Source of the DNA: Xanthostigma xanthostigma | Lineage: Eukaryota > Arthropoda > Insecta > Raphidioptera > Raphidiidae | Direction: 5' to 3' | DNA length: 64,000 nt | NCBI GenBank assembly: GCA_963575645.1 | Contig: OY754468.1 | Coordinates: 23,398,465-23,462,464 of the forward strand | Part shown: positions 2,960 through 61,722 of the stretch, in pieces | How the letters are laid out: each line of letters opens with the position of its first letter | How positions within the stretch are numbered: position 1 is the first letter of the stretch | Position numbers and translations under genes: made by a program | Notes under the pieces: model-generated | What the model saw: only the letters and a program-made list of their open reading frames with translations | Told to the model about the DNA's origin: nothing | Databases searched by the model: none

Positions 2960-4048
2960 TAACAAAAGCCAATTTTTAAAGTTTTTGTCTGTATGCCTGT
3001 TTGTTCCGGCTAATGTCTGAAACGACTGGGCCGATTTTGACGGGACTTTCACTGGCATATAGCTGATGTTATAAGGAGTCACTTAGGCTATAAAAAGAAA
3101 ATAAGGAAGTCTTTCCGTAAACTCTGCGAACTGAACAAACATAAATTCCACACCTCGTTATTTAAAGCAACCTACTTCATACCTAGAGCTAATGGCCTTG
3201 CTGCCGAAGCCTCATAATATAGTACAGTGTGTCCCCGGATAGAGTTCACAATAGGTGAGATTGACCAAAAATTTTCAAATTGGAAATTCATATTTTGGGA
3301 TTCCGCCCTGCTTAGTCTGAAACTTATTTTTAGTTGACTTTCGATTTTTTTAAATCAAGTAGGCCTTTACAGTTGAGCAAGACCTCTTTTCGTTTCAGGT
3401 AAAGTACCTGTTCCGTTCATAGTACGAAAAAGTGTCACTAAGAAAAGTTGTTCACTATGAAAAATTATGGCGTTATGCAAATTTTCAGAATGATCGGCCT
3501 ACTTTGATAAAAAATCCACTTTTATTTTGTTTTGTTTGAAAAACAATCGCGTGGAGGAAGCCAAACAGAGGAATTGAAGTTTAATTTATTTTTTTTGATA
3601 AACTGTAAAAATTTGAATGTTAATTTGAACACTTCTAACCATTCTGTTTTCTCATCTAAGATTTATCATGTAATCGTTAATAATAAATATTTTTCTACTT
3701 CTATTATTAAACTAGGCCGAGCATTCTGAAAATTTGCATAACGCCATAATTTTTTATTGTGAACAACTTTTCTTAGTGACACTTTTGCGTACTATGAACG
3801 GAAAAGGTAATTTACCTGAAACGAAAAGAGGTTTTGCTCAACTGTAAAGACCTACTTGATTTAAAAAAATTGAAAGTAAACTAAAAATAAGTTTCAGACC
3901 AAGCAGGGCGGAATTCCAAAATATGAAATTTTAATTCGAAAATTTTTGGTCAATTTCACCTATTGTGAACTCAGTCCGGGGACACACTGTATACATATAT
4001 AAAAAAAATAATAAATTCCACGCGGACGAAGTCGCGGGTTACAGCTAG
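2960..4048 (+). mobile_element. Helitron-like element, split by a MITE
   Basis: The 3' end is clear: the hairpin CGCGGACGAAGTCGCGGG at 4021-4038, a short spacer, then CTAG ending at 4048 before host T, which is the Helitron 3' signature. The left part (2985-3110) has the TGTTCCGGCTAATG and GATTTTGACGGGACTTTC blocks often seen in insect copies. A Tc1/mariner foldback (3225-3989) occupies most of the interior. I cannot place the 5' TC end, so the left border is approximate. No Rep/helicase is encoded, so it is non-autonomous. Confidence 0.6.
3225..3989. mobile_element. Tc1/mariner-type foldback MITE, TA duplication
   Basis: Ends in CAGTGTGTCCCCGG and its complement, flanked by TA at 3223-3224 and 3990-3991. 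The arms are very long: 3225 to about 3495 is the inverted copy of about 3717-3989, around a centre of roughly 220 bp. The TA duplication and CAGTG ends fit Tc1/mariner. The 65-codon ORF at 3532-3729 is AT-rich and not recognisable as a transposase. It lies inside the Helitron-like element, so it is younger than that element. Confidence 0.8.
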
Positions 4049-7438: not shown

Positions 7439-7836
7439 GTGAAAATACAATGTATACAATGTATTTTCACTAGCTGTAAAAGTAACTAGAAATTGTGTAC
7501 CCGTATGTATTCGTTACTTAAAGAACCAGTACCCGTTACTTTCGTATCGTTACCTTACTCGTTACTTTTCATACGGCATACAATCGTGTATAACAGCATC
7601 AAGAAGTGTATGTTCTCTGGCATCAAGCATGTACCCATCCTATCGAGGCGCGTCGCATCGTGGTACGGTATGACTTCGTTCGTATAACGTATAACCGCAT
7701 CATACGAGTCGAACTGACTCCATGCCAGTTCGATACGACAGATGCGAGTAACGAAATGAATTTGTAAGTAACGATTCGGTACTTCGAGTCAGACGATGTA
7801 CCCGTTACTCAGTAACGAATACATACGGTTTGTTAC
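7439..7836. repeat. GTAAC-rich inverted repeat region
   Basis: Opens with a perfect short palindrome (GTGAAAATAC/GTATTTTCAC, 7439-7470). From about 7495 to 7830 there are many GTAAC/GTTAC motifs. CCCGTATGTATTCGTTACT at 7500-7518 is the inverse of AGTAACGAATACATACGG at 7811-7828, so it is probably a MITE of about 340 bp. Superfamily unknown. Confidence 0.45.
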
Positions 7837-7937
7837 AGCTTAGTCCGGGAGCCGGCAATAGTGAAAGTGCACTTACACGGATTTTCAAGATTTTATATAA
7901 ATAAATAGTACATAACAATACGAACAGAATAAGCCCG

Positions 7938-8290
7938 GTATGACAGGGTTTATCCTGGCACCTGTATTTTTTATGCATTTTAGTATATTCAAAATTCTAT
8001 TATGTTTTGCACCTATCGCGGAAATAAATTTTAATTACACTATTTTCTTGCAAATTTTATGAACTTTTCAAAAATCTTGGTATGACAGCAATTATCGTGG
8101 CAGAAAAGCCTGTCATACCGCCTTAAAGAATATAGAAGTTATCAAATTTTACCCCCATCGCGGATAACATTTTTTTTTTTTTTAACTTCTTCATTTTAAT
8201 GTATTCTTTCAATATATTTCAGTATGACAGCTTAAAACATGCCGATAATCCCTGTCATACCAGTTTCAAAAAACGTAATTTTTTTAAGAA
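7938..8290. repeat. Subterminal 142-bp tandem repeats (left arm)
   Basis: TATGACAG occurs at 7939, 8081 and 8223, exactly 142 bp apart, and the inverse CTGTCATA at 8110 and 8252, again 142 bp apart. ATCGCGGA also recurs. The array is mirrored in the right arm at about 9207-9559. Regular subterminal motifs are known transposase-binding arrangements; that role here is inference. Confidence 0.6.
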
Positions 8291-8468
8291 GCTGACTTAT
8301 ATACCGTATACAAAATTAAATATTATAAAGTTACTTACCTAATTGATAAAAAAAATATTGTTATCAATGAATAAGGGAAATTAATAAGGGAATATATGTA
8401 GATTATATGGTTTAACTTATTTATTTAACAAAAAATTACTTAAAAATAAAATACAATGTTAATATTAC

Positions 8469-8717
8469 TTATTCATAATTATCGATATCGTCACAATATC
8501 GTATATTTGTTTGTTCATCGTCTTCATCTTCATTTTCATAATTTTTGGTAATTTCTTCAACAGTTAGCGGAGCTGCCTGGCCAATATACCATAATGGTTC
8601 AAGTCTATTTTTTTCATTAAGTTGCCAACCACACGTTGTTGGGTCATATAAAATGCAGGTTTGTTGAGTAGCATTTTGCCACATTGTATTTATAAATATT
8701 GTTCTTAAAATTTGCAT
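8469..8717 (-). pseudogene. C-terminal transposon-protein relic, left arm
   Basis: 82 codons, mirrored in the right arm from the ILRTIFINTMWQ block to the stop. Here the ORF starts at an ATG made by the arm junction, so it is a by-product of the inverted duplication. The visible pattern is I-RT-I---W----Q followed by DPT--GW and an acidic tail ending in DNYE. It is not expected to function alone. Confidence 0.5.
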
Positions 8718-9028
8718 TTTATAAAGGCATGATAAACTTCAATTCCAGCAATATTCCTCCTTGTTGGAAAAGTTTATCACAAAAAATTTTAAGAACAATA
8801 TTTATAAATACAATGTGGCAAAATGCTACTCAACAAACCTGCATTTTATATGACCCAACAACGTGTGGTTGGCAACTTAATGAAAAAAATAGACTTGAAC
8901 CATTATGGTATATTGGCCAGGCAGCTCCGCTAACTGTTGAAGAAATTACCAAAAATTATGAAAATGAAGATGAAGACGATGAACAAACAAATATACGATA
9001 TTGTGACGATATCGATAATTATGAATAA
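8699..9028 (+). pseudogene. C-terminal transposon-protein relic, right arm
   Basis: 109 codons. The first 30 residues come from the unique spacer and include the block IPPCWKSL, followed by ILRTIFINTMWQ, DPTTCGW, LEPLWYIGQ and the acidic stretch NEDEDDEQ before the stop. The order PPC..L..KI.RT...W, then DP...GW, then LEPLW resembles the C-terminal part of proteins encoded by insect DNA transposons. I recognise the pattern but cannot name the superfamily. The N-terminal and catalytic parts are absent, so it is a relic. Confidence 0.5.
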
Positions 9029-9659
9029 GTAATATTAACATTGTATTTTATTTTTAAGTAATTTTTTGTTAAATAAATAAGTTAAACCATATAATCTACA
9101 TATATTCCCTTATTAATTTCCCTTATTCATTGATAACAATATTTTTTTTATCAATTAGGTAAGTAACTTTATAATATTTAATTTTGTATACGGTATATAA
9201 GTCAGCTTCTTAAAAAAATTACGTTTTTTGAAACTGGTATGACAGGGATTATCGGCATGTTTTAAGCTGTCATACTGAAATATATTGAAAGAATACATTA
9301 AAATGAAGAAGTTAAAAAAAAAAAAAATGTTATCCGCGATGGGGGTAAAATTTGATAACTTCTATATTCTTTAAGGCGGTATGACAGGCTTTTCTGCCAC
9401 GATAATTGCTGTCATACCAAGATTTTTGAAAAGTTCATAAAATTTGCAAGAAAATAGTGTAATTAAAATTTATTTCCGCGATAGGTGCAAAACATAATAG
9501 AATTTTGAATATACTAAAATGCATAAAAAATACAGGTGCCAGGATAAACCCTGTCATACCGGGCTTATTCTGTTCGTATTGTTATGTACTATTTATTTAT
9601 ATAAAATCTTGAAAATCCGTGTAAGTGCACTTTCACTATTGCCGGCTCCCCGCCTAGCT

Positions 9660-15723: not shown

Positions 15724-16668
15724 TGTAACGGTTTAGTATCCAGGACAACGGAAAAAAATAATAAGTTCAGTTGAGGAGAGCATTTTTGATAGAAAGAGGT
15801 GTGAGGTTTAAAGTCGGAATAAATATTTGGATAATTGTCTAAGTTTGGTTGTCACAATTCATTAAAGTGTGAAATTAGTCAATTGGTACCATGTTGTAGA
15901 TGTTCAGATTATAAGCTTGTTTTGTTATTATGGTTGAAACTGTGAAGTGACTTGTATTGTGAATAAGTATCTTGTATTTAATATTTGCGCGTTCAGTGCG
16001 ATAAAATTGTGATGAAATTGAAGATAGACAAAAATTTGTTGCGTATTTGAATTTTGTAAATTTGGATGTTGTTTATTGCTCATATAATTTATTTAATTTT
16101 GAATACTAGTTAATTTTAAGGATTCCATCTAATGTCATACCAGCGTTGTATTGTTTAACTTACACAGCCTTCACTGACAAATGGTTTTACTTCAGTTTCG
16201 AATTTACGGGAAGTTAATTAAATATTATGACATTAGGTTATATTAGATTAATATTTTTCTTACGGTGCACCGCTTCAATTCTAATATTAATTAATTTAGA
16301 AGATATTGCCTAAACGGTACCTGTGTTACTCGTCAATTTTTGATAATTTAAATTTTGTTAAATATAGACCTATATTAGTTAATAATTTTTTTATTGATCT
16401 TATTCCTGTCTTTTTACTTCAGAATTATTAGGACAGATAATTCCTGAATCATTTATACATTGTGCACTGTCCTTGGCGCCCTTAAAACATCTTTAAAAGG
16501 TCAACAACAAAATTTCTTCGGGACCTCATATATTGCACTTATTATTATTACTCTGAATAGACAGGATAATTTTTTTCGTTTTCTTTAATAAGACCCTGCA
16601 GTCCTTACGACCCTCTCTACGACTGGTTTCAGCTGCCGCGCATGACGTTTTCTGAAGGAATCGTCATA
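15724..16668 (+). repeat. 5' LTR of the Ty3 element
   Basis: Begins TGTAACGGTTTAGTATCC and ends GGAATCGTCATA. It is 945 bp, the same length as the 3' copy, with no difference seen. The 3' terminus is TA, not the usual CA. That border is fixed by the match to the 3' LTR and by the GTAC duplication. Confidence 0.93.
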
Positions 16669-16674
16669 CAAATT

Positions 16675-16692
16675 TGGCGTCCAAACGTGGGG
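16675..16692 (+). other. Primer-binding site, tRNA-Lys-like
   Basis: TGGCGTCCAAACGTGGGG lies 6 nt after the LTR. It resembles the complement of an insect tRNA-Lys(CTT) 3' end (TGGCGCCCAACGTGGGGC) with one substitution and one extra A. It is expected to prime minus-strand DNA synthesis. Confidence 0.7.
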
Positions 16693-16858
16693 CCTAATTG
16701 TTTATCGTGCAGTTGTGGTTTGTGTTCGGTAACATTTTCTCATTTTGATTAATTATTAACGTGCATTTTTTGTTACATTTAATTCGTCTATCTTTATAGT
16801 TTTACTTGCTTAATTTTTGTTATTATTACTTATTAGGTATTAATTTTAGTATCCGAAA

Positions 16859-18094
16859 ATGGATATTTCATATGAAATTGACGTTGAACATTTACGTACG
16901 TTTGAAATCAATTATGAGCTTTTGATTAGAGGATTTATAGCTTCGGAAGATGAATCTAAACGTCGAAAATGTTTAAAACGACTTTTATCTTCTGATTTGA
17001 ATAGCACAGAAGTTAGATATTATATTGAAGCGTTTGACAGAGAAACGGACGGTGCAGAAATAGATTCAAGTATTACATCCATTGACAGTTTGTTAGGAGT
17101 ATTTTCTGGAAATTACATGGATGAAATTTTCTGTCAAATACGAAGCCGGCTTAATCATGTCAAAGGACGCCTTTCCAGGATTCAGTTGGACGATGATGCT
17201 GTGATTGCGTTTAAAAATGATAGATTAATATCTGTACTAGCTATAGAAGACACGTTCCTGGAAAAAGTGGGTGAAATTTCACCTGAAATGTTTGGTAACG
17301 TTGTAAATAATGCAATTATTAATACTACAACTCAACTTAATAACAGTGTCTCTTCTAGAGTTGATAATACTTTAAAAATATTTAAATGGGGAATTACATT
17401 TGATGGTATCAGTCCAGTCAGTGAATTTTTGCAACGAATTGAAGAACTTCGCCGAGCTCGACATGTGTCTAAACATTCGTTATATGATTCGGCTGTTGAA
17501 TTATTTTGTGGTAATGCTTTATTGTGGTACCGGTCGATGCGTGAAAATAAATTCGATGATTGGGATTCTCTTGTTAAAGCACTTAAAGATCATTTCTTAC
17601 CTCCAGATTACGACCAAGAGATTCTTCGACAAATTTATGCTCGATTTCAGCAGCCTGGTGAAAAAGTCATCATATTTGTTTCGACAATACAAAATTTGTT
17701 TGCTCAGTTGCCTGATTCCCCACCGGACGGCGAAAAACTTCGCGTTCTCAAACGCAATATTTTGCCTTGTTATCGCCCACATTTAGCACTTCGAAATATT
17801 TCTTCTGTTTCAGATTTAATTGATATTTTAGTAATTTTGGAACCGACGGTAGTTCCAGAAAATTCGACGGACTTTTGTCGAAAGAAAAATGTATCAGTAC
17901 TACATAATGTTTCTAACACTTCGAATACCAGTACATCTAATGTAAAATGTTGGAATTGTCAAGAAGAGGGACATCTTCGTTTCAATTGCTCAAAACCGAA
18001 GACAACGAATTATTGCTTTGGATGTGGTAAACCTAATGTTACTCGTCCGAAATGTCCGCGTTGTTCGGGAAACGGAAATGGAGAGAGTTCATAG
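16859..18094 (+). CDS. Gag polyprotein (Ty3/gypsy)
   Basis: 411 residues, ATG at 16859 directly after the leader. Residues about 170-325 form a retrotransposon Gag capsid region (EFLQRIEELRR, ALLWYRSM, LKDHFLPPDY motifs). A CCHC zinc knuckle lies at 364-377 (CWNCQEEGHLRFNC). A second knuckle at 386-399 keeps its cysteines but has V in place of the histidine, so it is degenerate. Gag packages the element RNA into cytoplasmic particles. The last codons overlap pol, and the frameshift site is codons 403-405. The ORF is uninterrupted. Confidence 0.92.
   Translation: MDISYEIDVEHLRTFEINYELLIRGFIASEDESKRRKCLKRLLSSDLNSTEVRYYIEAFDRETDGAEIDSSITSIDSLLGVFSGNYMDEIFCQIRSRLNHVKGRLSRIQLDDDAVIAFKNDRLISVLAIEDTFLEKVGEISPEMFGNVVNNAIINTTTQLNNSVSSRVDNTLKIFKWGITFDGISPVSEFLQRIEELRRARHVSKHSLYDSAVELFCGNALLWYRSMRENKFDDWDSLVKALKDHFLPPDYDQEILRQIYARFQQPGEKVIIFVSTIQNLFAQLPDSPPDGEKLRVLKRNILPCYRPHLALRNISSVSDLIDILVILEPTVVPENSTDFCRKKNVSVLHNVSNTSNTSTSNVKCWNCQEEGHLRFNCSKPKTTNYCFGCGKPNVTRPKCPRCSGNGNGESS
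18067..18073 (+). promoter_or_regulatory. Programmed -1 frameshift heptamer GGGAAAC
   Basis: G GGA AAC sits exactly in the X XXY YYZ register of the gag frame (codons TCG GGA AAC). After a -1 slip the frame reads into GKRKWREF and onward through the pol ORF. Downstream, GGAGAGAGT (18080-18088) can pair imperfectly with ACTCTTCTC (18101-18109), a possible stimulatory stem. GGGAAAC is a known retroviral slippery sequence; use here is inferred from frame and overlap. Confidence 0.8.
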
Positions 18095-19428
18095 GTCGTC
18101 ACTCTTCTCGTCCACCTAAGGCCTGTTCGAAACTACCGTTTGATTCAACTGGTTGGCAATCATGGTTGCAACATGTTTCTGAATTTTGCGTTGGAAAAGC
18201 TCAGGTAAACCCTATATTTTTCTCGCGCCCTAATGATAATCGTCCACATATTTCTGTTTCAATTTTTGATATGAGTGTAGTTGCTTTAATGGATTCCGGA
18301 GCTAATTTGTCAGTTTTGGGACGCGAAGGTCTAAATATAATTAAAACGTTTTCTCTACCGATTCACAAGTCAACTGACAGTTCTCTTGTCACCGCTGATG
18401 GAGCAGCTCAATCTATTGTTGGATTTGTCTGGTTGCCCATTAGTATTGATAACAATCTAAGATTAGTGAAAGTCCATGTAGTGCCATCTTTATGTCAGTC
18501 TCTCATTTTGGGAAGCGATTTTTGTACACAATTCAGGATCGTCATAGATTTCCGTAATAATTCATATCTAGTAGGGGATAAAAATATTCGAATTCCGGAG
18601 GTTGCCTGCAATTTGTCGAAATCTAATGTTTGTGGTCATGGCGTGAAGAGTCGTCAAGATTTAAATGCTGCTCAAAGCAAACAATTAGATGCTATGATTA
18701 AAAATTTTGAGACACTTTCATGGATGGATGGTACTCGATTGGGAAGGACCAGTAAAATAGTTCATTCCATTGATACTGAGGTGGCTAAACCTATTAAACA
18801 GCGACAATACCCCCTGTCACCATTTATGTTAAAGCATTTATATGATGAATTAGCTAAAATGCTTGAGCTAGGAGTAGTTCAAAAATCATCTAGCCCATGG
18901 ACATCTCCAGTACTGCTCGTCAAGAAGTCAGATGGGGAATATCGTTTTTGTTTTGACGGACGGCGTCTAAATGAAGTTACGAAGAAGGATGCGTACCCAC
19001 TTCCACGAATAGACCACATTCTTAATCAATTGTCTGGAGCACAGTTTTTGTCCAGTGTTGATTTAAAATCAGCTTTCTGGCAAATACCGTTAGATGACCT
19101 GTCACGGGAAAAAACTGCTTTTGTTGTCCCCGGAAAAGGCCTCTATGAATTCGTTGTTATGCCGTTTGGTCTTAGCAATGCTCCACAAACACAACAACGC
19201 CTTATGGATGCTGTACTTGGTCCGGAACTTGATCCGTTTGTTTTTGTATATCTTGATGATATCATTATAGCGACACCAACTTTCGAGAAACATATTGAAA
19301 TATTAGAGGAAGTGTATCGACGTTTATTGGCTGCGAATCTCACCATTAATTTGAAAAAATGTGAATTTTGCTTGCCGGCACTTAAATATCTAGGTTTTTT
19401 TAGTGGATCGCGAGGGTTTGAGAACTAA
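18067..19428 (+). CDS. Pol part 1: protease and reverse transcriptase
   Basis: Open in the -1 frame to 19428; the first ATG at 18052 lies in the overlap and is unlikely to be the true start. An aspartic protease follows, with catalytic DSGAN at 18292-18306 and the later LILGSDF motif. The RT has SSPWTSPVLLVKK, the R-LN/YPLP region, SSVDLKSAFWQIPL, VMPFGLSNAP and the catalytic YLDD at 19249-19260, and ends in LKYLGF. Translation stops early because of the extra T near 19395; RNase H and integrase continue in the next frame. Confidence 0.9.
   Translation, partial: GKRKWREFIGRHSSRPPKACSKLPFDSTGWQSWLQHVSEFCVGKAQVNPIFFSRPNDNRPHISVSIFDMSVVALMDSGANLSVLGREGLNIIKTFSLPIHKSTDSSLVTADGAAQSIVGFVWLPISIDNNLRLVKVHVVPSLCQSLILGSDFCTQFRIVIDFRNNSYLVGDKNIRIPEVACNLSKSNVCGHGVKSRQDLNAAQSKQLDAMIKNFETLSWMDGTRLGRTSKIVHSIDTEVAKPIKQRQYPLSPFMLKHLYDELAKMLELGVVQKSSSPWTSPVLLVKKSDGEYRFCFDGRRLNEVTKKDAYPLPRIDHILNQLSGAQFLSSVDLKSAFWQIPLDDLSREKTAFVVPGKGLYEFVVMPFGLSNAPQTQQRLMDAVLGPELDPFVFVYLDDIIIATPTFEKHIEILEEVYRRLLAANLTINLKKCEFCLPALKYLGFFSGSRGFEN
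19394..19401 (+). other. Frame break in pol at a T run
   Basis: After LKYLG the sequence is GG followed by seven T. Six T would keep the reading frame in line with the next ORF. Reading on as is gives a stop at 19428. No -1 slip here enters the downstream frame, since it would meet TAG; a +1 shift or one base fewer is required. An inactivating insertion and a homopolymer sequencing error are both possible. Confidence 0.8.
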
Positions 19429-21373
19429 TCCTGAAAAGGTATCTGCAATGCTCGAATATCCTCGGCCTGAGAATACCACTCAGTTAAAACGCTTTATAGG
19501 TATGACTTCCTGGTATCGACGATTCATACCACATTTTTCTTCACTCACTGCACCAATCACGAGTCTAATTAAAGGTCGAAAGAAATTTCAAAGCATTAAG
19601 TGGACATCGGAAGCGGAAGAAGCATTTATTAAAATAAAACAAGCATTAATTTCTGCACCAATATTAGCAGGTCCAAACTTTAATAAAATCTTTAGTATCC
19701 AGTGTGACGCATCGGACGTTGGTTTAGGGTGTGTTCTCACCCAAGAAAATGATCAAGGACTAGAAGTTCCAATTGCCTTTGCGAGTCGTACATTGACGGC
19801 TGCAGAAAGAAATTTTACAGTGACTGAGAGAGAATGCTTAGCGGTTCTTTTTGGTGTTGATAAATTTAGACCTTACATTGATGGGACCAGATTTCGAGTG
19901 ATCACAGATCACCATTCACTTTTGTGGCTCCATAAACTCAAAGATCCGGTTGGTCGTCTTGCCAGATGGTCGGTAAAACTACAACAATACGAAATGGATA
20001 TCGAACACCGTAAAGGTCAACTTAATATTGTTCCCGATGCTTTATCTCGAGCTCCTCTTAGTTCATGTTTTTTACAAGTGAACGACGACTATTGCGCTGA
20101 GGATAGCTGGTACCAGCGTATGTTACAATTTATTGCTACCAGATCTGAAAACTTTCCTGACTGGGATGTTGTGGAAGGACATCTTCATAAATATGTTCCC
20201 AATGCAATCGGTCTTCGTGCTGGTCCCGAGTGGAAAGTAGTGGTACCAAAACGTCAGCGTACGGATGTGATTCGACATTGCCACGATGAGCCAATGGCCG
20301 GTCATCTGGGAATATTTAAGACTATCAATCGTGTGTGTGAAACGTACTATTGGCCTAAAATGCGTGGTGACATTAAACGTTATGTGCTTCGTTGCCGCAT
20401 ATGTGCTGCTCAGAAAGTTTCTTCCACTGGACGTCCAGGATTTATGGGGAAACAAAAGCGTATTTCTCATCCCTGGCAGCTCGTTTCAATAGATATGATT
20501 GGTCCTTTGCCTCCTTCTCGTAACGGTTTCTCCTATTTACTTGTCGCTACGGACTGGTTCACCAAGTTCGTTTTATTACGGCCTTTACGTAAAGCCGTTG
20601 CTAGTGCCGTTGCTAAATTTTTGGAGGAAGAAATTTTTCTAATGTTTGGCGTTCCTCAGTTTATTACTTGTGATAATGGAACAGAGTTTTGCAACAACAC
20701 CATCAAAGATCTTGCCCAACAATATGGCGTCAAAATTTGGAATACTGCTCGTTATCATGCACAGGCTAACTTTGTTGAACGCTACAACAGAACTATTGGA
20801 ACTGCAATTCGCTCATACCTAGAAGGTGCAGATCATCGTTCTTGGGACAAAGGTATACAAAAAATAGCATTTGCCTTGAGAACAGCTGTTAACGAGTCGA
20901 CGGGTTTCGCAGCTACATTCCTTAATTATGGTCGTTATGTGCCGTCAAATGGCGAATATTATGGCCGACTTAATGATATAGATGATATGGATCCTGATGT
21001 TGTACGGCAATTACACACTAAAGAACTAAAACAGCTTCCCGATATTTTTAAAGAAGTCCAACGAAAAATAACGCAAGCTTACGAAAAGAATATGCGATCC
21101 TACAACCGTAATAAAAAACCAGCAAATATTTATGCTGTTGGAGACAAAGTTTGGAAGCGTCATCACACCATGTCTAGTGGATTTCACCATCATGCTGCGA
21201 AATTAGCACCCAAATACGTAGAAGCTACTGTAGTAAAAGTGGTGTCTGACCTCGTCTACGAGTTAGAAGATGAGAATGGGGCTAATGTAGGAAGATGGCA
21301 CGTAAAAGATTTAAAGCCATTCACAGCTTCCGATTCAACAGATTCGGAATCCATAAGTAATTCAGAAAATTAA
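19403..21373 (+). CDS. Pol part 2: RT thumb, RNase H, integrase
   Basis: 656 codons. It starts with the RT connection (KRFIGMTSWYRRFIPHFS), then RNase H (QCDASDVGLG, TERECLAVLFGV, TDHHSLLWL). The integrase has an HHCC zinc region (about residues 290-340, ending CRICAAQK) and the catalytic triad D (20492-20494), D (20672-20674) and E (20777-20779) in SIDMIG, CDNGTEF and NFVERYN. The C-terminal part (LAPKYVEATVV to WHVKDLKPF) looks like a GPY/F module. No chromodomain and no env follow. The ATG at 19403 is an artefact of the frame break. Confidence 0.92.
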   Translation: MDREGLRTNPEKVSAMLEYPRPENTTQLKRFIGMTSWYRRFIPHFSSLTAPITSLIKGRKKFQSIKWTSEAEEAFIKIKQALISAPILAGPNFNKIFSIQCDASDVGLGCVLTQENDQGLEVPIAFASRTLTAAERNFTVTERECLAVLFGVDKFRPYIDGTRFRVITDHHSLLWLHKLKDPVGRLARWSVKLQQYEMDIEHRKGQLNIVPDALSRAPLSSCFLQVNDDYCAEDSWYQRMLQFIATRSENFPDWDVVEGHLHKYVPNAIGLRAGPEWKVVVPKRQRTDVIRHCHDEPMAGHLGIFKTINRVCETYYWPKMRGDIKRYVLRCRICAAQKVSSTGRPGFMGKQKRISHPWQLVSIDMIGPLPPSRNGFSYLLVATDWFTKFVLLRPLRKAVASAVAKFLEEEIFLMFGVPQFITCDNGTEFCNNTIKDLAQQYGVKIWNTARYHAQANFVERYNRTIGTAIRSYLEGADHRSWDKGIQKIAFALRTAVNESTGFAATFLNYGRYVPSNGEYYGRLNDIDDMDPDVVRQLHTKELKQLPDIFKEVQRKITQAYEKNMRSYNRNKKPANIYAVGDKVWKRHHTMSSGFHHHAAKLAPKYVEATVVKVVSDLVYELEDENGANVGRWHVKDLKPFTASDSTDSESISNSEN

Positions 21374-21394
21374 ACTTCTTATTTTTTTCTTCCA

Positions 21395-21407
21395 AGAAAG
21401 GGGGGAA
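21395..21407 (+). other. Polypurine tract
   Basis: AAGAAAGGGGGGAA directly precedes the 3' LTR at 21408. It is the expected plus-strand primer. Confidence 0.85.
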
Positions 21408-22352
21408 TGTAACGGTTTAGTATCCAGGACAACGGAAAAAAATAATAAGTTCAGTTGAGGAGAGCATTTTTGATAGAAAGAGGTGTGAGGTTTAAAGTCG
21501 GAATAAATATTTGGATAATTGTCTAAGTTTGGTTGTCACAATTCATTAAAGTGTGAAATTAGTCAATTGGTACCATGTTGTAGATGTTCAGATTATAAGC
21601 TTGTTTTGTTATTATGGTTGAAACTGTGAAGTGACTTGTATTGTGAATAAGTATCTTGTATTTAATATTTGCGCGTTCAGTGCGATAAAATTGTGATGAA
21701 ATTGAAGATAGACAAAAATTTGTTGCGTATTTGAATTTTGTAAATTTGGATGTTGTTTATTGCTCATATAATTTATTTAATTTTGAATACTAGTTAATTT
21801 TAAGGATTCCATCTAATGTCATACCAGCGTTGTATTGTTTAACTTACACAGCCTTCACTGACAAATGGTTTTACTTCAGTTTCGAATTTACGGGAAGTTA
21901 ATTAAATATTATGACATTAGGTTATATTAGATTAATATTTTTCTTACGGTGCACCGCTTCAATTCTAATATTAATTAATTTAGAAGATATTGCCTAAACG
22001 GTACCTGTGTTACTCGTCAATTTTTGATAATTTAAATTTTGTTAAATATAGACCTATATTAGTTAATAATTTTTTTATTGATCTTATTCCTGTCTTTTTA
22101 CTTCAGAATTATTAGGACAGATAATTCCTGAATCATTTATACATTGTGCACTGTCCTTGGCGCCCTTAAAACATCTTTAAAAGGTCAACAACAAAATTTC
22201 TTCGGGACCTCATATATTGCACTTATTATTATTACTCTGAATAGACAGGATAATTTTTTTCGTTTTCTTTAATAAGACCCTGCAGTCCTTACGACCCTCT
22301 CTACGACTGGTTTCAGCTGCCGCGCATGACGTTTTCTGAAGGAATCGTCATA
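21408..22352 (+). repeat. 3' LTR of the Ty3 element
   Basis: 945 bp, same start (TGTAACGG) and end (CGTCATA) as the 5' LTR, followed by the GTAC duplication. No mismatch found by eye. Confidence 0.93.
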
Positions 22353-23228: not shown

Positions 23229-24013
23229 GCGAGATCCGGTATTAGAAATACCTATATACCCTCATCTGTTATTTGATGATGACAAATATTATATGTTAGA
23301 TAATATACACATTGATAAATTGCACATGGCCGTTACCTAGTTAAATCGCGTACCGATGTTGTTAAACTAAATAAATTCTAATTAATTTTTTTGGATCAAC
23401 TTTCCCGATTTGTTAATCATAAAAATCGAGCCTTAAATGGAGAATCTGACATAAGCAAACGAATACACAGAACACAACTATTTAAAAGGTATGTTATGTG
23501 GATGATCTATATTTTTGTATAGAATCAATGATATATTCCAATTTCTTGTGTCATATTCTCTCATTTTAAGCTTGATTTTTATGATTAACAAATCGGGGAA
23601 ATTGATCCAAAAAAGTCAGTTAGAATTTATTCAATTTAACAGAATCGGTATGCGATTTATCTAGACCAGTGGTTCCCAAAAGGTGGTCCGCGGACCCCCA
23701 GGGGTCCGCGGCTAGCCGGTAAAAATAAAATAGTAAACAAATTTTCAAAAACATGCTCAGATACGCTAAAAACGTGCCAATTTAATTGTAATTTTGCAAA
23801 TTTTCCCAGACCCCCCGGTATTCGGGGGTCCCCGACTACTTAGCTAGTTCACTTAGGGGTCCACGATTACCTGTTATTTGGGAACCACTGATCTAGACAA
23901 CCGATGTGAGATTTATCAATGTAGGTAGGTATATTGTATATATTATTATCTAACATAGAGTCTTTGTCATCATCAAATAACAGATGAGGGTATATGTTTC
24001 CAATATCGGATCT
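23229..24013. mobile_element. Foldback element, interrupted by a hAT MITE
   Basis: GAGATCCGGTATTAGAAA at 23229 is inverted at the right end (AATATCGGATCTTAG). Inward, CTCATCTGTTATTTGATGATG and GATTTGTTAATCATAAAA are inverted at about 23965-23985 and 23582-23598. Once the hAT MITE at 23667-23890 is discounted the arms are about 220 bp. No duplication recognised. Confidence 0.65.
23667..23890. mobile_element. Short hAT MITE, 8-bp duplication ATCTAGAC
   Basis: Ends CAGTGGTTCCCAAAAGGTGG and its inverse (TTGGGAACCACTG). ATCTAGAC flanks at 23659-23666 and 23891-23898. The 224-bp element has GGGGTCCGCGG motifs. It sits in the right arm of the foldback, so it is younger. Confidence 0.88.
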
Positions 24014-38094: not shown

Positions 38095-38150
38095 TTTATT
38101 AAATTGGACGTTTCGCCATTTAATTATGACTTCATCAGCAACTTACTAAT
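38095..38150 (-). ncRNA. Hammerhead ribozyme candidate
   Basis: On the minus strand: stem I strand ending AAGTTG, core CTGATGA (38138-38132), stem II AGTCAT...ATGGC imperfectly paired around AATTAA, core GAAAC (38114-38110), then GTC and CAATTT. CAATTT pairs with AAGTTG (one G-T). The GTC triplet is a canonical cleavage site. Stem III is only the self-complementary ACGT, so activity would need a dimer. Confidence 0.55.
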
Positions 38151-38475
38151 AAAATTCAATTGTTAAAAATAAAAACTTTTTTGTTAAAATAATAATAATA
38201 AAATCTAATAAATTCCATTTTGTGACTTTTAAATAAAATGGCATTTATTGGATTTTATTATTATTTTAACAACAAAGGTTTTGTTTTTAACAATTGAATT
38301 TTGTAACTTTAAAATAAAATTCGAGAATTTTATTTTAAAATGACAAAATGGCGTTTATTAGATTTTATTATTATTTTTACAAAAAATTTTAATTTTTAAC
38401 AATTGAATTTTATTAGTAAGTTGCTGATGACGTCATAATTAAATGACGAATGGTCCAATTTAATAAAATCAAATT
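38106..38475. mobile_element. Head-to-head inverted repeat with hammerhead ends
   Basis: 38088-38160 (minus) and 38400-38475 (plus) are inverted copies, each reading AACAATTGAATTTTATTAG, then AAGTTG, then CTGATGA. Between them an A/T-rich unit with AAAATGGC and TTAGATTTTATTATTATTTT recurs about 110 bp apart. Penelope-like retroelements are known to carry hammerhead ribozymes; relation to them is inference, as no protein is present. Confidence 0.6.
38411..38475 (+). ncRNA. Degenerate hammerhead copy
   Basis: CTGATGA at 38424-38430, perfect stem II CGTCAT/ATGACG (38431-38448), then GAATGGTC where the other copy has GAAACGTC. The conserved GAAA is lost, so it is probably inactive. Stem I partners AAGTTG and CAATTT are kept. 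Confidence 0.5.
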
Positions 38476-53279: not shown

Positions 53280-54301
53280 TGGTAAGAGTACGATAACTTG
53301 CTATGCAAAATATCCACTGGAAATTCACAATTATTGTTTTATATAACATATAACAGCGTTATTGGTCGTTTTAAGTGCGGAAAATTAATTTTTATAAATT
53401 AATTTAAAAAAATTAAATATGGTATAGTAAATTGATTTGGAGTATATTATTTACTCTAGCGATCGCTATCTTGTCTCATATAGTGATAAGAAAAGAGAAA
53501 GTTATATATACCTGTATCTATGATAAACAAAGATAGAAATATCAATTGGTTGGAATGAAATTCAATTGAACGTTCAGGGCAGAGTCGTATTTGGAAATTT
53601 TAATTTATAAAACGAATTTTAAATTTAAAACTCACATTTTCATGGAGATTGAAAACTATCGCTTTTTTTGATAAAGGGGTATGCGAATTGTCTCGCAGTG
53701 AAACGGGAAGGGGCAAATGTGGAATTTTTAAAAAAACAATTCCGGGGTGAACGATAAACGGGTATGCGTATTGTAATTCTGGGGTGAACGATAAAGGGGT
53801 ATGCGAATTGTCTCGCAGTGAAACGGGAAGGGGCAAATGTGGAGTTTTTAAAAAAACAATTCCGGGGTGAACGATAAACGGGTATGCGAATTGTAATTCT
53901 GGGGTGAACGATAAAGGGGTATGCGAATTGTCTCGCAGTGAAACGGGAAGGGGCAAATGTTGAGTTTTTAAAAAAACAATTCCGGGGTGAACGATAAACG
54001 GGTATGCGAATCTAAATACGACCCTGCTTCCATAACACAATCGAAAGCTGCATACAAAGTGAGATAGTTATATAATAATTCTACACCAGTTGCTATGACG
54101 TGTATTTGTGATTTTTGATTGGTTAGATTCAAAAAATGACAGTGAAAGACGAAAAGTAGTTCCATTTTTTTCACGTATTTTTGAGGAAATTTGTGAATAA
54201 TCCGCAAAGTTTTTTTTTTTTGAACGTCAAATTTTAGCGTTTTCTATGACTTAAAAAAAAAATTTCAAAATTTGGGTGCATAGTGTTATCGTACTGGACC
54301 C
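53280..54301. mobile_element. Family G element with tandem expansion
   Basis: Left GGTAAGAGTACGATAACTTG, right (inverted) GGGTCCAGTACGATAACACT. TGATCGAT flanks at 53272-53279 and 54302-54309. The outer parts match 47830-48261, but the interior is enlarged to 1,022 bp by a 120-bp tandem array plus about 250 bp of AT-rich sequence. Confidence 0.75.
53669..54010. repeat. 120-bp tandem array, about 2.9 copies
   Basis: Exact 120-bp period: GATAAAGGGGTATGCGAATT, TCTCGCAGTGAAACGGGAAG, CAATTCCGGGGTGAACGATA, repeated with very few changes. Because 120 is a multiple of 3, the minus strand is open for 146 codons with a 40-residue repeat (HPGIVFLKT, LPLPVSLRDN). The unit resembles GCGCAGTGAAAAGGG and ACGGGGTCG in the shorter copy at 47960-48012. 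Confidence 0.85.
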
Positions 54302-60619: not shown

Positions 60620-61030
60620 GTGAAGTTTACTACAATCATTACAGGTAGGTATATTATCTCAAAAGCAAACGTTTTAAAATCAGAAAGTCAACACGTAGAG
60701 AGACAAAATAACAAAGAAATGTATGTTAACTGAAGAAAGCAATTCACTTATCAAATTACACGACAAGATAGTAATAATAATCGTATATATACGCTGATGG
60801 CGTTACAAGCCCTGATACATGTATTCATTTGTTATGTATAACGAGTGAATGTGTATCATCAACTGACAAAAGACATTTTATAACTCGTGTCTGAAACTCA
60901 TTACCAGCCCCTTTCCGTCAAGTAAGAGAATGCATTGCTTAGAAAAGTGTAGAGAAAAGATCAGCACGGGAGACGAGTTGGTAAACATTTAGAATTCATT
61001 TTTAATTGAAAAACACGTTATCAATGATAT
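60620..61030. other. Intergenic, nothing recognised
   Basis: AT-rich. Confidence 0.4.
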
Positions 61031-61434
61031 AAATAAAATATTTTTAACAAAAAAATTGAACCGACTTCAAAATATGCACTAAAAAGTAAAAAATAATTGC
61101 ATATTGAAATAAATAATATTAGACTACTTAAAATTCAATCAAATTATTACGATAATATCATGTACTTACAATTATTGTTATTTTTAGAGTCGGTGTCACA
61201 TCGTAATTCGAAAGTAGCAATTTAAATCTTACATGTCTCTAGTTCTCGGAATAGATTTCATTTTGGCTGACACCGACTCCAAAAATAACAATAATTGTAA
61301 GTCCATGATATTATCGTAATAATTTGATTGAATTTTAAGTAGTCTAATATTTTTCATTTCAATACGCAATTATTTTTTACTTTTTTGTGCATATTTTGAA
61401 GTCGGTTCAATTTTATTGTTAAAAATATTTTATT
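61031..61434. repeat. Foldback with arms of about 170 bp
   Basis: AAATAAAATATTTTTAACAA then TTGAACCGACTTCAAAATAT at the left is inverted at 61391-61434. The match runs to AGTCGGTGTCA at about 61190-61203 against TGACACCGACT at 61269. Centre about 60 bp. Confidence 0.7.
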
Positions 61435-61722
61435 TTTCTCATTTTAGTGGTAGATATTTGACGAAAAAATCGGTGAACATATATAAAAAACATTATGCGT
61501 GCCTTTGAAATTTGAGAGTTTCCCTCGATTTCTCCGGATTCCACCATCAGATCCTGACTTGGTTCCGATGGGACCATCTCGGAAGTGCACTTTTTCGAAT
61601 AAAAAAATAATTTTGAAAATCGGTCCACAATTGACGGAGAAATTGGTGAACATACATAAAAAAAAATATATATACAGTCGAACATAGAACCTCCTCCTTT
61701 TTTGAAGTCGGTTAATAAAATA
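61435..61722 (+). repeat. Unclassified repeat ending in GAAGTCGGTTAA
   Basis: ATCGGTGAACATATATAAAA near 61470 recurs as TTGGTGAACATACATAAAA near 61643. It ends CCTCCTCCTTTTTTGAAGTC then GGTTAATAAAA, an ending I have seen in insect dispersed repeats. The 148-codon minus ORF crossing it is not believed. Confidence 0.4.

Follow-up and report, generated by a model that had tools for sequence, protein, structure and literature searches.

The window, a stretch of 64,000 nucleotides of contig OY754468.1 of Xanthostigma xanthostigma (Raphidiidae; GCA_963575645.1, positions 23,398,465 to 23,462,464 of the forward strand), contains an inverted repeat of 1,816 bp at 7841-9656 with GCT at both sides. Its two arms (7841-8713 and 8784-9656, 873 bp each) surround a 70-bp spacer at 8714-8783. 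Between 7847-8713 and 8784-9650 the arms are exact reverse complements, with 0 mismatches over 867 bp, a match that is beyond chance. The only two mismatches between the arms both lie within the outermost 6 bp, where the left end reads TAGTCC and the right end, read inward, TAGGCG. The first-pass annotation had reported a 1.8-kb near-perfect palindrome with apparently identical arms of about 866 bp, and the measurements bore out both statements. The terminal inverted repeats (TIRs) thus fill nearly all of the element (1,746 of 1,816 bp), and its transposase gene is incomplete, with about 105 last codons left. The coordinates of the features are given in Table 1. The subterminal motifs listed there may be transposase-binding sites.

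Table 1. Features of the palindromic element and its target site, in window coordinates.
Feature	Position	Strand	Remarks
Target-site duplication, left copy (GCT)	7838..7840		Flanking sequence
Outermost left hexamer TAGTCC, unlike the other end at 2 of 6 positions	7841..7846
Left native TIR, 422 bp; sole part of the left arm also present at the left end of non-palindromic members	7841..8262		Length from L027/L028/L032/L033
Putatively acquired 451-bp inverted duplicate of 8784-9234 (3' flank and roughly 81 final codons of the transposase-like gene)	8263..8713	-	Missing from the left side of L027 and L028
Putative founding junction AAATTT/GCATTT; overlap with native sequence at most 1 base	8713..8714		Same spacer adjoins both arms in 20/23 copies
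Spacer, 70 bp, native coding sequence AFYKGMINFNSSNIPPCWKSLSQ...; reversed relative to the ends in 12/23 copies, the window's included	8714..8783	+
C-terminal tail of transposase-like gene, stop codon 9026-9028	8784..9028	+	Homologous to the tail of a 680-codon open frame (L071), 64% identity
Right native TIR, 422 bp	9235..9656
Outermost right hexamer CGCCTA (inward: TAGGCG)	9651..9656
Target-site duplication, right copy (GCT)	9657..9659
Subterminal GGTATGACAG / CTGTCATACC motifs, several in each arm	7928..8262, mirrored at 9235-9569		Repeat families D1-D3, I2, I3, I8, I9

Several other repeats were seen in the window. The left flank of the palindrome (7480-7835) holds, by eye, an inverted pair around ACCCGTATGTATTCGTTACT / AGTAACGAATACATACGG, and the insertion site of the palindrome may have been next to an older MITE. 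A complete-looking LTR retrotransposon at 15724-22352, which we take to be gypsy-type from the look of its frames, has 945-bp LTRs that are 100% identical, GTAC at both sides and long open frames between, and seems to have inserted very recently. Three further self-complementary stretches (61023-61443, 38095-38467 and 23337-23664), about 330-420 bp long with 77-87% identity, are probably old MITE-like or foldback elements. At 53600-54040 there is a 120-bp tandem array (53670-54011, 2.8 copies, 98% match), which the minus strand reads as an open, repetitive frame of 146 aa. The repeat GCGGACGAAGTCGCGGGTTACAGCTAGT near 4,020 is reminiscent of Lepidoptera.

To place the palindrome within the genome (623 Mb, 28 contigs), we combined a nucleotide search with one arm, which gave at least 81 matches and in which 40 of 66 candidates were scored, and a protein search with the 150-aa coding tail, in which all 127 candidates were scored. 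Together they yielded 23 palindrome-derived copies at distinct places. The window's palindrome is one of these, and not the product of a founding event of its own. The copies were about 99% alike, and the spacer of each matched at 68-70 of its 70 bases. Full-length arm pairs were present in 16 copies; in the other seven one arm was altered, by deletion or truncation (L020, L025, L026, L030, L035 and L036) or by a large insertion (L029). The same spacer adjoined both arms in 20 copies, one side being deleted in L020, L025 and L035, and these shared junctions fit a single origin followed by transposition.

The target-site duplication (TSD) of the family is 3 bp long. The flanking trinucleotides were identical in 21 of the 22 copies with both ends readable, most commonly TTA/TAA, with GCT, AGA, GGA, TTG, AAA and others also present. 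The sole exception was L009 (C2, about 35393794-35395608), whose flanks are CTT and TTG, a possible trace of exchange between copies. Each of these 22 palindromes had one TAGGCG-type and one TAGTCC-type end (TAGTTC in L030, and one G short in L024). One end of each type is not a general requirement for transposition, as both ends of a 3.4-kb relative on C10 read TAGTCC. The insertion in one arm of L029 (L029:1631-9562, about 7.9 kb) contains a direct repeat of about 1.17 kb with 99.1% identity around two long open frames, which by eye resemble those of the window's LTR element.

Because 23 copies were found, and matching TSDs flank 21 of 22, the element in the window is a mobile, non-autonomous foldback DNA transposon and not an accident of assembly. 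An unsplit hairpin read, or arms collapsed in polishing, could have produced the 867-bp arm identity, since polishing is able to copy one arm onto the other. However, an unsplit read would mirror the flanks, whereas the palindrome ends at transposon ends with different flanks and a TSD. The 22 further copies show the same structure within their own flanks, and many carry private mutations. We do not find it credible that an artefact would recur at 23 differently flanked places, and we regard an assembly or library artefact at the window's locus as extremely improbable.

Four non-palindromic members of the family were informative about its natural ends. L027 and L028 have the right half and the spacer in common with the palindromes, and their left half is different: it consists of a 422-bp TIR, leaves the right-end sequence at position 423 and continues as other, partly coding DNA, with an open frame (...NVNKARYELFLKYFASTSNNDAFYKGMINFNSSNIPPCWKSLSQ...) that runs through the spacer into the tail. 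L032 and L033 have lost internal sequence in another way, and their TIRs are likewise 422 bp long. The natural ends of all four agree over 422 bp save for the 2 terminal mismatches, 0-2 substitutions and 0-1 single-base indels. TSDs were matched in L028, L032 and L033 and unmatched in L027 (TTA/TTT). As L027 and L028 read through the spacer from upstream with another left half, the frame FAFYKGMINFNSS... in the spacer must be the native one, in agreement with the earlier claim that only the right copy of the coding tail continues into the spacer with fitting protein sequence.

Judged from these alignments, the palindromic element is not the natural form of the transposon, and its left arm holds an inverted duplicate of the right end. 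The first-pass annotation had explained the whole left arm in this way. That explanation holds for the inner 451 bp (8263-8713) and fails for the outer 422 bp, which were already a natural TIR, so that only the inner part needed copying in. The alternative that the 873-bp arms are the natural TIRs of an autonomous element, with no duplication at all, gains something from the long TIRs of the relatives (422 bp in L027, L028, L032 and L033, about 471 bp in the C10 relative) and from Galileo, whose TIRs include coding sequence even in a nearly complete copy (PMC4168063, in excerpt). The departure of L027 and L028 from the right-end sequence at position 423 contradicts it, unless these two are later recombinants, and we consider it very improbable.

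A genome search for a parent with a distinct left end, as the first-pass annotation had proposed, was thus answered in part: L027 and L028 carry such a left half, but no full-length family member was found among the 127 of 127 scored tail candidates, and none at 85% identity or more extends upstream beyond L027 and L028. At this identity the tail was confined to the palindromes and these two members. We infer the founding template from the deletion derivatives and from a relative with 64% identity; a parent lying in an assembly gap would escape the search. This relative (C10:14759991-14763434, L078 and L071) is complete in outline, with 3,444 bp, TTA at both sides and one open frame of 680 codons from stop to stop (L071). 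Its TIRs of about 471 bp are 98.3% identical over 474 aligned columns. Its tail has a close copy at C1:34194563 (L070). Other candidates for the parent were rejected. L034 (C3:26702000-26710000) has the left TIR only, which becomes other DNA after about 391 bp, and L040 and L038 belong to a related family and are interrupted. A 357-aa open frame about 4.5 kb beyond the TIR of L034 has, by eye, the look of a membrane protein.

We compared the coding sequences with protein libraries to place the family in a superfamily. Searches of Pfam and PDB sequences with the window tail, the L038 frame and a 662-aa relative gave no usable match, those listed being weak and below cut-off, and the same was true of NCBIfam, searched with the 662-aa relative only. 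A 5-row profile (alignment A1) found no usable Pfam or PDB match, and other members of A1 gave weak matches only. Viral contigs, plasmids and prokaryote genome contigs yielded no relatives. PIF/Harbinger elements use a 3-bp TWA target site. TTA and TAA are the commonest TSDs of the window's family, yet GCT, AGA, GGA, TTG, AAA and others occur, and the Pfam search of the 662-aa relative showed no Harbinger domain. In the relative L071 we noted by eye EEADTRIFYHL, SVDTDVLIICLG and HAFTGCDYT, motifs that to us look FEN1/XPG-like and recall Academ, without support from Pfam or PDB by single sequence or profile. Academ elements have a 3-4-bp TSD and an XPG-like nuclease in the transposase, and the 3-bp TSD of the window's family and of the C10 relative fits that length. 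Our literature search found no paper linking Academ with XPG, and one paper lists Academ among the superfamilies with a DDD/E transposase, with XPG unmentioned in the excerpt at hand (PMC9587614). With respect to Galileo and the P superfamily, a TSD of 7-8 bp (PMC4168063, in excerpt) differs from the 3 bp seen here; as to a P-type transposase, no Pfam family of any kind exceeded its cut-off for the 662-aa relative.

The two arms of each copy were compared with each other and with those of other copies in the 16 intact copies, leaving out the last 6 bp and counting substitutions but not indels. Arms differed by 0.18% within a copy and by 0.48% between copies. Had the arms diverged independently after the founding event, arm A of a copy would be closer to arm A of other copies than to its own arm B, and the opposite was observed. 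Within copies there were 25 mismatches in total; when arms were paired at random 2,000 times, the mean was 65.6 and no pairing fell below 43. A total of 18 distinct derived substitutions were found on both arms of a copy, and 12 of these were private to one copy. Columns 384 and 385 fall in a part of the alignment rich in indels, which may account for as many as 4 of these 18, 2 of the private ones among them. An earlier comparison that included the shortened copies L020, L025, L026 and L030 and the terminal mismatches gave a weaker contrast (0.61% within against 0.80% between copies). Since arms agree better within than between copies, although the arms must have separated before the copies did, the data favour arm-to-arm conversion as the cause of arm perfection.

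The copies resident in the genome also bear unrepaired mutations in one arm only, at 23 sites. Two of these sites were common to two copies (L010 and L012), and both lay within 10 bp of the spacer. These shared variants, small in number, fit a sparing of the bases where homology runs out. No substitution between the arms was found in 5 of the 16 copies, among them the window's, which is for this reason probably young. The first-pass annotation had offered recent origin or ongoing gene conversion as the explanation of perfect arms. The family data favour conversion, and the window's own copy is probably young as well.

Because the two ends can be told apart, the orientation of the spacer relative to them could be scored. 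All four non-palindromic members have TAGGCG at the 5' and TAGTCC at the 3' end (L027 and L028 by the spacer, L032 and L033 by alignment), and the same polarity is seen in seven of nine members of a related family (TIRs 72-75% alike), namely those with at least one end found (L038 and L044 are without). Among the palindromes, this polarity was kept in 11 and reversed in 12, the window's included (L036 was scored from one end only).

Orientation was also scored by haplotype class. The first class, which lacks an insertion near arm column 381, held 5 reversed and 5 unreversed copies. In the insertion class with T at spacer base 61, L010 and L012 were reversed and L029 was not, and in the class with C at this base L016 and L019 were reversed while L015, L017, L018, L021 and L025 were not; L029 and L035, whose intact arms the class pattern missed, were assigned to their classes by separate comparison. 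The window's copy, L009 and L013 have other variants near arm column 381, and all three were reversed. As three haplotype classes each hold both orientations, we conclude that the centre inverted recurrently. At least three inversions would be needed if each marker arose once and copies never exchanged sequence.

Parsimony on a tree gave 6 orientation changes (bootstrap 4-7), against a mean of 6.5 with shuffled labels. This tree, of 20 of the 23 copies (without L029, L035 and L036), is nearly a star in which 2 of 17 inner branches are well supported, and those two branches alone force just 1 orientation change. The haplotype-class argument is safer than a count of flips by tree.

An appearance of flips could also arise if copies exchanged sequence with one another before transposing. 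More broadly, spacer orientation and shared arm variants might both stem from ectopic exchange or conversion between copies and not from events within one copy. The copies are numerous and about 99% alike, L009 is a palindrome with unequal flanking trinucleotides, and Galileo is known, by excerpts of its literature, for ectopic recombination. The matched TSDs in 21 of 22 copies nevertheless indicate that reciprocal exchange at the present sites is rare. In addition, 12 of the both-arm substitutions occur in only one of the 16 copies, whereas a donor copy should share them. Recombination in ancestors that transposed later could still have taken place, and we think it unlikely, though a serious contender, that exchange between copies explains the pattern.

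Our preferred reading is that the palindromic foldback transposon originated once from a parent with 422-bp TIRs, was amplified in trans, had its arms homogenised and had its centre inverted more than once; we hold this with high, though not full, confidence. The parent would have had its last codons near the right TIR, with TAGGCG at the 5' and TAGTCC at the 3' end, as carried over from the deletion derivatives in which this polarity is seen. In a single founding event, during repair of a break or an excision gap, synthesis in the left TIR may have switched to the right TIR, which is the same sequence inverted, and copied 451 bp further inward, taking in the 3' flank and the coding tail. The copied end would then have been joined end to end with the remaining interior at the spacer. 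For defective copies of Galileo, gap repair with abortion, slippage or template switching has been invoked (PMC4168063, in excerpt). Fold-back priming at a short inverted repeat in the spacer (TGATAAACTT/AAGTTTATCA) was rejected, since by eye the arms begin elsewhere (about 16 bp off on one side and 4 bp off on the other).

The product would have kept two working ends, and a transposase acting in trans would have amplified it. Arm was presumably copied onto arm through gene conversion, or through template switching in a hairpin or cruciform, and crossing-over or switching between the arms may have inverted the 70-bp centre more than once, giving the present 12:11. The outermost bases and those next to the spacer would have been spared, as homology ends there. 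A bolder version, to which we give only a slim chance, is a self-isomerising transposon, in which each mobilisation would pass through a hairpin or cruciform, arm would be copied onto arm and the centre could invert, which would keep the arms of mobile copies identical, with the unmatched terminal and the spacer-side bases escaping; beyond that, the hairpin, with the coding tail of the parent in it, may have silenced and outlived its parent.

Another possible role of the element is that of a natural silencer: a read-through hairpin RNA with the transposase tail would give rise to small RNAs that silence the parent, a role proposed for Mu killer. Mu killer has a similar layout, in which one transposon end is present twice and a piece of the transposase gene is duplicated in inverted orientation (PMC3440606, in excerpt), and the assembly is without a full-length parent as far as found. 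However, Mu killer transcripts include shorter ones unable to form a long hairpin (PMC3440606, in excerpt), and parents are lost for other reasons too. We consider such a natural silencer improbable.

Among known foldback elements, Tc4 and Tc6 of C. elegans are short and nearly palindromic (about 1.6 kb) and belong to another superfamily. The closest precedent is Galileo (P superfamily, Drosophila), whose TIRs were extended by an inverted copy of the transposase gene end, taking in 69 bp of it and in one copy more than 500 bp; its authors in 2014 called this recruitment so far unique to Galileo (PMC4168063, in excerpt). The window's family differs in its 3-bp instead of 7-8-bp TSDs, a transposase unrecognised in the libraries searched, two arm-spacer junctions shared by 20 of the 23 copies, perfect arms of 867 bp (in the window's copy) and a centre found both ways round. 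Mu killer of maize likewise has the same transposon end twice, together with transposase-gene sequence duplicated in inverted sense, but it is described as a single silencing locus (PMC3440606, in excerpt), whereas the window's family is mobile and multi-copy. Tetris of Drosophila virilis is a foldback element too. That some Tetris copies are homogenised internally, with unequal crossing-over and gene conversion named as possible routes, has been suggested by its authors; tandem repeats of 220 bp lie in its TIRs (PMC4079207, in excerpt), and the window's element has none of these. A thin search of the open-licence PMC literature turned up no description of a palindromic transposon with spacer isomers.

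We find the family-wide pattern of arm copying and centre inversion the interesting part of these results. Long perfect palindromes are expected to be unstable, and despite this one has spread to more than 20 places. The family adds a case of TIR growth by uptake of the transposase gene end, with 3-bp TSDs that differ from those of Galileo. Through the two-base difference between its ends and its unmirrored centre, each copy records both the turning of the centre and the copying of mutations between arms. A single genome thus offers, in the many copies of one transposon family, a replicated natural assay of how palindromes undergo arm-to-arm conversion and inversion.
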